Shown: positions 53,908-55,732 of the stretch, one piece after another
How positions within the stretch are numbered: the first letter of the stretch is position 1
Layout of the letters: every line of letters starts with the position of its first letter
DNA from: Flavobacteriaceae bacterium
GTDB lineage: Bacteria > Bacteroidota > Bacteroidia > Flavobacteriales > Flavobacteriaceae
Reading direction: 5' to 3'
NCBI GenBank assembly: GCA_018699935.1
Contig: JABISF010000034.1
Location: 1-64,000 of the forward strand
DNA length: 64,000 nucleotides
The notes under the pieces: generated by a model
Database searches by the model: none
What the model saw: the letters and a program-made list of their open reading frames with translations, nothing else
Told to the model about the DNA's origin: nothing
Translations under genes and position numbers: made by a program

Positions 53908-53936
53908 AAAAAGCCGACCTATAAAAAGTCGGCTTT
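53908..53936 (-). terminator. Rho-independent terminator after tRNA-Leu(CAA)
   Basis: aagccgac (53911-53918) pairs with gtcggctt (53928-53935), T-run on the minus strand. Confidence 0.75.
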
Positions 53937-54272
53937 GAAGTACCTTGGGTGGGAATCGAACCCACACTCCCGAAAGAACTGGATTTTGAATCCAGCGCGT
54001 CTACCAATTCCGCCACCAAGGCATTGTTTATATTTTTTGCGAATTTCGCGTAATTTTTCTTTTCCTACTCCTGATTTCCAATATTTTTCTCTCTCCCTTG
54101 CTTCAATTCTAGTTTCTATTATTTCAGAATATAATAACTCAAAAGGAGCGTATGGTTTTGTTATTCTTTCCCTACCGCTATTATGTCGTTTAATTCTTCT
54201 TGTTAAATTAGAAGTCAAACCCACATAAATATAATTTCTTTTTAAACTTGAAAGAGCATATACCCAAAACAT
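53919..54272 (-). CDS. GIY-YIG nuclease domain protein whose frame runs through tRNA-Leu into its terminator
   Basis: FWVYALSS...YIYVGLTSNLTRRIKRHNSGRE...TKPYAPFELLYSEIIETRIEAREREKYWKSG is GIY-YIG; tail CLGGGIGRRAGFKIQFFRECGFDSHPRYFKADFL is translated tRNA plus terminator. Confidence 0.85.
   Translation of the reverse strand: MFWVYALSSLKRNYIYVGLTSNLTRRIKRHNSGRERITKPYAPFELLYSEIIETRIEAREREKYWKSGVGKEKLREIRKKYKQCLGGGIGRRAGFKIQFFRECGFDSHPRYFKADFL
53941..54023 (-). tRNA. tRNA-Leu, anticodon CAA
   Basis: Reverse complement TGCCTTGGTGGCGGAATTGGTAGACGCGCTGGATTCAAAATCCAGTTCTTTCGGGAGTGTGGGTTCGATTCCCACCCAAGGTA. Confidence 0.95.
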
Positions 54273-54287
54273 TTCAAAATATCAATT

Positions 54288-54337
54288 AGCGCGCCTGCCT
54301 GTCGGCAGACAGGTCTACCAATTCCGCCACCAAGGCA
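54288..54337 (-). pseudogene. 5' partial copy of tRNA-Leu(CAA) interrupted by a 20-bp palindrome
   Basis: agcgcg (54288-54293) and tctaccaattccgccaccaaggca (54314-54337) are identical to the intact tRNA, with cctgcctgtcggcagacagg inserted between them. Confidence 0.92.
54294..54313. repeat. 20-bp imperfect palindrome CCTGCCTG-TCGG-CAGACAGG
   Basis: 8-bp arms with one G/T-type mismatch, 4-nt loop. Confidence 0.92.
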
Positions 54338-54520
54338 AAGATTAGATGGTTGTGCAAATGCCCAACCCGCTAAAACGAGCCCAAAAGTAATGATTTTTTT
54401 GGCATACTTTAAATTCAAAAAAATAAATTTTAGGTTTGCCACAAAAATTGACAAAAAACGAAATGCCCTTCCACGGTTTAAAAAAAAATTCATAAATTCC
54501 TGAATACTCATTAAAATCCC

Positions 54521-55732
54521 ATGAAAGTAATTTTTTATACTAGAGAATACCCTCCTTATGTTTACGGTGGTGCCGGTGTGCATGTTGAATATCTCGCACA
54601 AGAATTGTCCCAATTAATGGAAGTTGACGTTCGCAGTTTTGGCGATCAAAAAGAACAACATCCCCAACTCAGTGTTCAAGGCTATCCCTATGAAAATCCC
54701 ATTTTTGATGCTTCGGACAAAAAATTAAAAGGCGTCTTCCAAACCCTCAGCACCTGTATTCAGATGAATGGACAAGCGGTGGATGCAGATGTGGTGCACT
54801 GCCATACTTGGTATGCACAATTTGCCGGTATTGTTTCAAAACTTTGTTATGGCACTCCACTGGTCATCACCACCCACTCCCTCGAACCACTCCGACCTTG
54901 GAAAAGGGAACAATTGGGCAGAGGCTATGAAGCCTCCTCCTGGATTGAAAAAACAGCCATAGAAATGGCCGATGCCGTCATCGCCGTTTCCAAAGAAACC
55001 AAAGAAGATGTATTAAAATATTTTGAGGTCGATAAAGAAAAAGTAAAAGTGATTTACAACGGGATTCGGCTTGAAGAATACACTCCAACAGCTCAAACCA
55101 CTGCGTTGGAAAAATATGGAGTGGACAGCAGTAAACCCTATGTACTTTTTGTAGGGCGAATAACCCGCCAAAAAGGAATCATTTATTTGGTCAACGCCAT
55201 CCAACACATACATCCGGACACCCAGATAGTGCTTTGTGCCGGAGCCCCCGATACGCCCGAAATTGAAAAAGAAATGGAAGCTGCCGTAGCTGCCATAAAA
55301 AACACTCGCAGCAATTTGATTTGGATTGCCGAAATGTTGGACAAACCTTCCATCATACAGTTTTATTCGCATGCCGCTGTATTTTGCTGCCCCTCCATCT
55401 ACGAGCCTTTTGGTATTATCAACATCGAGGCGATGGCTTGCGAAACCGCCGTTGTCGCCAGTGCCGTTGGAGGAATCAAAGAAGTGGTTGTTCATGAAGA
55501 AACCGGAATTTTAGTACCTGTTGAACAGCATCAAGTGGCTCCTTTTGCACCCGTTGATCCGGAACAATTTTCCAAGGATTTGGCAGCTGGCATCAATCGC
55601 CTAATCGCCGATCCGGCACTTTGTAAAAAAATGGCGGAAAATGGAAGGCGCAGAGTAGAAGAACATTTTGATTGGAAAATCATTGCTCAAGAAGTGAAAA
55701 GCTTATACGAATCCCTAAAAACAAACTCATGA
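54521..55732 (+). CDS. glgM: GT4 glycosyltransferase, actinobacterial-type GlgA/GlgM (candidate maltose-1-phosphate synthase)
   Basis: TREYPPYVYGGAGVHVEYLAQEL; THSLEPLRPWKREQLGRGYEASSWIEKTAIEMADAVIAVS; VGRITRQKGI; CPSIYEPFGIINIEAMACETAVVAS; resembles mycobacterial GlgM rather than GT5 GlgA. Confidence 0.8.
   Translation: MKVIFYTREYPPYVYGGAGVHVEYLAQELSQLMEVDVRSFGDQKEQHPQLSVQGYPYENPIFDASDKKLKGVFQTLSTCIQMNGQAVDADVVHCHTWYAQFAGIVSKLCYGTPLVITTHSLEPLRPWKREQLGRGYEASSWIEKTAIEMADAVIAVSKETKEDVLKYFEVDKEKVKVIYNGIRLEEYTPTAQTTALEKYGVDSSKPYVLFVGRITRQKGIIYLVNAIQHIHPDTQIVLCAGAPDTPEIEKEMEAAVAAIKNTRSNLIWIAEMLDKPSIIQFYSHAAVFCCPSIYEPFGIINIEAMACETAVVASAVGGIKEVVVHEETGILVPVEQHQVAPFAPVDPEQFSKDLAAGINRLIADPALCKKMAENGRRRVEEHFDWKIIAQEVKSLYESLKTNS

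Follow-up and report, generated by a model that had tools for sequence, protein, structure and literature searches.

A hairpin-interrupted tRNA-Leu copy in a Flavobacteriaceae genome as the mark of a small, apparently mobile tRNA-linked GIY-YIG nuclease element

The 64,000-nucleotide stretch of Flavobacteriaceae DNA analyzed here (the window) contains two copies of a tRNA-Leu gene, one broken and one intact, on either side of a small nuclease gene (Table 1). Read along the minus strand, nucleotides 1–23 of the dead tRNA copy are followed by a hairpin sequence, nucleotides 24–29 of the tRNA, a 15-nt spacer, the GIY-YIG gene and the intact tRNA-Leu. The junction (GCCTTGGTGGCGGAATTGGTAGA / CCTGTCTGCCGACAGGCAGG / CGCGCT) splits the tRNA-Leu(CAA) exactly after nt 23, with no tRNA base missing and no target duplication except a one-base ambiguity (C), and the clean insertion into tRNA-Leu that an earlier note on this DNA had described was thereby borne out. 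That note had called the insert a 20-bp palindrome, which was right as to its length and its capacity to form a hairpin but not as to its symmetry. Only 8 of the 10 pairs of the 20-mer are Watson–Crick in DNA, so that it is an imperfect palindrome; in RNA of the tRNA/nuclease sense strand it would form an 8-bp stem with one G–U pair. The sequence, CCTGCCTGTCGGCAGACAGG, was the sole match in the window at up to three mismatches, and 100 shuffles gave none. The "partial tRNA" of the note is present as a fragment (nt 1–29), but this description understated the locus, in which fragment, nuclease gene and intact tRNA together make up one unit, with a net insertion of 314 bp relative to an empty tRNA-Leu gene (54000–54313, by arithmetic). 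No stop codon lies between the nuclease ORF and the tRNA, and the reading frame crosses the tRNA. The rebuilt tRNA was the sole tRNA-Leu(CAA) detected in this 88%-complete genome.

Table 1. Features of the tRNA-Leu(CAA) locus in the window, in minus-strand order.
Feature	Position	Strand	Basis
TACTTTTG, promoter box of the TAnnTTTG type, 5' of the dead tRNA copy	54382..54389	-	Consensus match only, putative promoter
Dead tRNA-Leu(CAA) copy, nt 1–23	54314..54336	-	Identical to intact copy nt 1–23
20-bp imperfect palindrome after tRNA nt 23, D-loop / 3' D-stem edge	54294..54313	-	
Dead tRNA-Leu copy, nt 24–29 (CGCGCT)	54288..54293	-	Sequence
GIY-YIG nuclease domain, start codon 54272	54033..54272	-	PF01541, E 1.6e-17; catalytic residues conserved
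Whole nuclease ORF, frame through intact tRNA, stop at 53919	53919..54272	-	
Rebuilt intact tRNA-Leu(CAA)	53940..54022	-	ARAGORN

All 29 congener loci have an intact, uninterrupted tRNA-Leu(CAA) with no nuclease there, i.e., element-free alleles of the gene exist in congeners. The empty site was read from the tRNA itself, and the synteny of the glycogen synthase-like gene that adjoins the element (window 54521–55732) was unusable in the 29 congeners. This flank may be a recent gain, because the gene had no match at E 1e-100 in any of them. The window belongs to a draft MAG, but the same layout is found in the named isolates Galbibacter orientalis, Algibacter luteus and Altibacter lentus, ruling out an assembly artefact.

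The architecture recurs across Bacteroidota. The nuclease was identified in 55 of 200 family-level genomes and in 96 of 297 genomes of the phylum (66 of 141 genera), and one genome collection held at least 545 related stretches; the tRNA-Leu clade served for the DNA-pattern search, because the diversity of a broad GIY-YIG alignment was too great for it. A tRNA gene lay within 350 bp of the nuclease gene, always on the same strand, at 53 of 68, 25 of 26 and 72 of 80 loci in three sets that overlap slightly. Of the 72 tRNA-linked loci in the named set, 71 had a tRNA fragment; 67 of these 71 fragments were interrupted, 63 by a hairpin of at least 5 bp. The wider family set had 44 fragments, 35 of them interrupted. 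Hairpins of at least 5 bp were formed by 84 of 108 inserts, compared with 9% of random segments. The element is located inside the tRNA gene, with a full tRNA on one side and, on the other, a piece with one or more hairpin interruptions that has kept its connection with the native promoter (or terminator) side. Two layouts occur: the rebuilt tRNA is downstream and the dead piece is 5', or the gene is preceded by the rebuilt tRNA and followed by the hairpin-bearing 3' piece, as in 34 of 78 tRNA-linked relatives. Among the relatives a TAnnTTTG box was present within 45 nt upstream of 16 of 33 dead copies versus 2 of 44 rebuilt tRNAs, and because the box precedes dead copies we take these to represent the gene's original 5' end. 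The nuclease stop codon falls within or past the tRNA in 26 of 44 down-type loci, often at nt 8–10 or 21–23, and tandem arrays are common, with up to 8 units. Together, these data confirm in relatives the tie between palindrome and nuclease that had been suggested for the window, and indicate that the palindrome is a standard mark of a small, apparently mobile, tRNA-linked GIY-YIG element.

Several relatives have features of their own. One array (L117:980–3752, genome G177) has eight GIY-YIG units in tandem, and a tRNA-Met 3' piece interrupted by a hairpin follows each of them. At three other loci (L014:1440–1720, L048:620–880 and L074), tandem units of ~110 bp after tRNA-Thr or tRNA-Gly contain a palindrome and a tRNA 3' piece but no nuclease gene, and these are possibly non-autonomous. 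A contig binned as Candidatus Kerfeldbacteria (L277:1100–1478) also has the architecture of the element, one palindrome being nested within another, reflecting either transfer beyond Bacteroidota or misbinning. A hairpin-bearing pseudo-tRNA (L146:671–765) was called tRNA-Lys(TTT) by ARAGORN, and such pseudo-tRNAs may be misannotated as genes.

The nuclease has the GIY-YIG fold and catalytic residues (PF01541) of a homing endonuclease, with Y5, Y16, G18, R26 and E62 conserved at 99–100% across 73 nuclease proteins. Counting against a homing role, it is a single domain of ~80 aa in which no separate DNA-binding part was seen. In the tree of the 73 nucleases the tRNA label required 27 changes versus 52.9 when shuffled, with none of 200 shuffles as low; each clade keeps to particular tRNA genes, and a group of 22 nucleases from many families occurs exclusively at tRNA-Leu genes. 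At tRNA-Leu(CAA) in other genera (L010 and L051) the same nuclease is present at the same insertion site, and the acceptor stem of each dead copy matches that of its own genome. An identical type of unit also occurs at tRNAs other than tRNA-Leu(CAA). The tRNA-Leu pieces at three loci (L085, L218 and L225) are of another allele than the host's own, which suggests transfer between lineages, although the host tRNA could instead have been replaced. The genome of the window also has a second small GIY-YIG gene (L006:6658–6960; G000:C54:58657–58959), which is not at a tRNA and is flanked by copies of an inverted repeat (TGAAACAAGTTCAGGGTGAC / GTCATGCTGAACTTGTTTCAGCATC).

The hairpins vary in sequence (CCTGCC..., CCCGCCCG..., TCCCGA..., TCCGCC...) and their positions recur, chiefly after nt 22/23, the site after nt 23 being shared by 42 tRNA-Leu inserts altogether, those of L010 and L051 included. 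Positions recur across clades, and a single tRNA site may be occupied by different palindrome families. Based on ARAGORN cloverleafs, 95 of 126 hairpin inserts were at tRNA helix edges, where 33.1 were expected. Such raw counts overstate the support because loci within a clade share ancestry, and fairer measures are tree-based tests and collapsed counts; when collapsed to distinct tRNA-position pairs, 30 of 48 were at helix edges, with 12.7 expected (binomial P 2e-7). Within tRNA pieces the inserts fall where the structure-directed insertion postulated in the earlier note would place them. This did not extend beyond tRNA pieces, as 54 palindrome contexts outside tRNA had no hairpin-edge enrichment (3 of 54, similar to neighboring positions), and hairpin-edge insertion was rejected as a general rule.

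We propose that the element is a SegB-like homing nuclease element specialized on tRNA genes, in which the dead copy has its target disrupted by the hairpin, and consider this reading as a whole to be probably correct. We have high confidence in the architecture and tRNA specificity of the element; the role assigned to the hairpin in the dead copy, namely the disruption of nuclease target and repeat homology, is put forward tentatively. Its mobility, and homing as the means, are what we infer from the pattern of the sequences. On a chromosome that lacks the element, the nuclease would cut the corresponding, uninterrupted tRNA gene, into which the element would then be copied by repair, a form of intronless homing that the host would survive because the tRNA is rebuilt. 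In the weakest step of the model, the copy still attached to the native flank may have both its nuclease target and its repeat homology disrupted by the hairpin, such that this dead copy would neither be re-cut nor recombine the element away. The marking of a nuclease site by the palindrome, one of the roles offered in the earlier note, comes near to this. Since the rebuilt tRNA retains an uninterrupted target, self-cutting must be avoided otherwise. Uninterrupted stretches of 37–51 nt remain in some dead pieces, and a strict role of the hairpins as a recombination barrier is weakened by them.

A function of the hairpin in RNA, either in controlling translation of the nuclease or in blocking the folding or processing of the dead tRNA piece, is an unlikely alternative to a broken homing target. 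It has a precedent, as the portions of the literature consulted describe phage GIY-YIG endonucleases, including segB, as being under mRNA hairpin regulation (PMC2988022), and the inserts, lying at helix edges, break whichever tRNA arm is present. However, the hairpin in the window ends 21 nt upstream of the nuclease start codon, the folding of the leader does not surpass that of shuffled sequences (z −1.5, −0.2 and −0.2), which led us to reject any special RNA stability of the leader, and the 34 of 78 relatives with the hairpin piece 3' of the gene speak against the translation control that the earlier note had envisaged.

The remaining alternatives concern palindromes in the genome at large. 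The palindrome pattern occurred in 48 of 200 family-level genomes and a reversed control in none. Some genomes carry 10–24 dispersed copies, for which no target preference was found. The pattern search placed 18 of 72 distinct contexts in tRNA pieces and 54 of 72 elsewhere. When the palindrome was excised in silico, tRNA sequence spanned the junction in 23 of 77 contexts, 5 of these 23 coming from nuclease-selected loci, versus 3 of 762 control positions. The nuclease was present in 32 of the 48 genomes with the palindrome versus 23 of the 152 others (odds ratio 11, with host phylogeny uncontrolled), and the association persisted within genome-size strata and for dispersed copies alone (odds ratio 9, with shared ancestry uncontrolled). 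Just one palindrome copy was seen with a direct repeat (TCAATCAAA) on either side (L038:570–640), possibly a chance tandem repeat.

Based on this co-occurrence across genomes (odds ratio 11), the nuclease may also move scattered palindromes. A broader scheme built on that possibility, with phylum-wide minimal elements that are specialized by tRNA type in Bacteroidota and resemble REP/RAYT systems with another enzyme, appears to us improbable. We give still less weight to the idea that the GIY-YIG nuclease itself mobilizes the palindromes as its non-autonomous partners. The richness in nuclease of palindrome genomes (ancestry uncontrolled) and the nuclease-free short tandem units at tRNA-Thr and tRNA-Gly are compatible with it, but association is not mechanism, shared ancestry being uncontrolled, and the dispersed copies lack a detectable target preference. 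The earlier note had favored a REP/MITE-like palindrome, moved by a Y1 HUH enzyme, and its chance entry into a dead tRNA piece would account for the duplication-free, clean insertion and for the dispersed copies, which reach 10–24 in some genomes and lie outside tRNA in most contexts. Against this, the copy count and the TnpA-REP search that the note proposed gave one exact and one one-mismatch copy of the 20-mer, nearly unique in this genome, and no PF01797 match in the 88%-complete MAG. In relatives the palindrome accompanies the nuclease element, tightly linked to it and to fixed tRNA positions, and differing families share one tRNA site, which makes an independent palindrome very unlikely. 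The last explanation, that common Bacteroidota palindromes insert anywhere and persist as passive relics in dead tRNA pieces because no selection acts there, fits the wide distribution of palindrome families and the expected loss of insertions in working tRNAs, but was already disfavored and is very unlikely, given that dead pieces of just ~30–50 nt are interrupted in 67 of 71 and 35 of 44 cases, that the positions recur across clades, and that in two genomes (G103 and G039) the sole exact copy is the one in the tRNA piece.

The findings point to a class of very small mobile elements in essential tRNA genes that is abundant, with at least 545 related stretches, and apparently undescribed. They provide a testable origin for pseudo-tRNAs laden with hairpins, as well as for small GIY-YIG ORFs with translated-tRNA C-termini. 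No published account of the palindrome or of tRNA-linked GIY-YIG elements in Bacteroidota was found in the mostly open-access literature covered, and the novelty is provisional because that literature omits most subscription papers.

Among known systems, a group I intron with a GIY-YIG ORF was rejected; an Rfam gathering scan of the locus returned tRNA only, a complete tRNA is downstream, and the sequence ahead of the start codon includes just 21 nt outside the hairpin and ORF. Integrase islands likewise insert into tRNA genes and leave the gene complete, but the present element is ~314 bp with one nuclease ORF and a hairpin at the dead junction, and the identification was rejected because that ORF alone, and no integrase gene, lies between the tRNA copies. 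REP/RAYT systems also associate a short palindrome with a nuclease-type gene, their palindromes having a GTAG or CGTC tag (PMC3733652). Here the partner is a GIY-YIG nuclease, no Y1 transposase was found in this genome, and neither tag was found at the palindrome, which is bordered in the window by agcgcg and tctacc; with Y1 HUH, many copies and tag all lacking in the 88%-complete genome, this assignment was also rejected. The Rickettsia palindromic and mitochondrial double-hairpin elements are mobile hairpins with no flanking duplication, and, as far as the sections consulted of the source describe them (PMC2800124), resemble the hairpin alone, without a linked nuclease gene or rebuilt tRNA. 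The closest solved relatives of the nuclease are the UPF0213-type single-domain GIY-YIG proteins of PDB 1YWL and 1ZG2 (E 4e-6 and 6.5e-6), annotated merely as hypothetical proteins. The closest known system is SegB of T-even phages, whose free-standing GIY-YIG gene is located at tRNA genes and, according to the sections of the reports drawn on here, drives tandem tRNA amplification and is co-located with tRNAs with no isotype preference (PMC13096335, PMC2988022). Both have a small free-standing GIY-YIG gene beside a tRNA, tandem tRNA/nuclease amplification and tRNA-nuclease sequence overlap at the gene end. Unlike SegB, the elements described here are chromosomal in Bacteroidota, with only four loci in viral contigs and no tblastn match of the window nuclease at 1e-5 in phage or plasmid records. 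They also lie inside one tRNA gene that is rebuilt while a hairpin-broken dead copy is left, such a copy not being described for SegB in those same sections, and their nuclease clades keep to a tRNA type. The phage SegB-tRNA link would thereby be extended to bacterial chromosomes, with each nuclease clade keeping to a tRNA gene.
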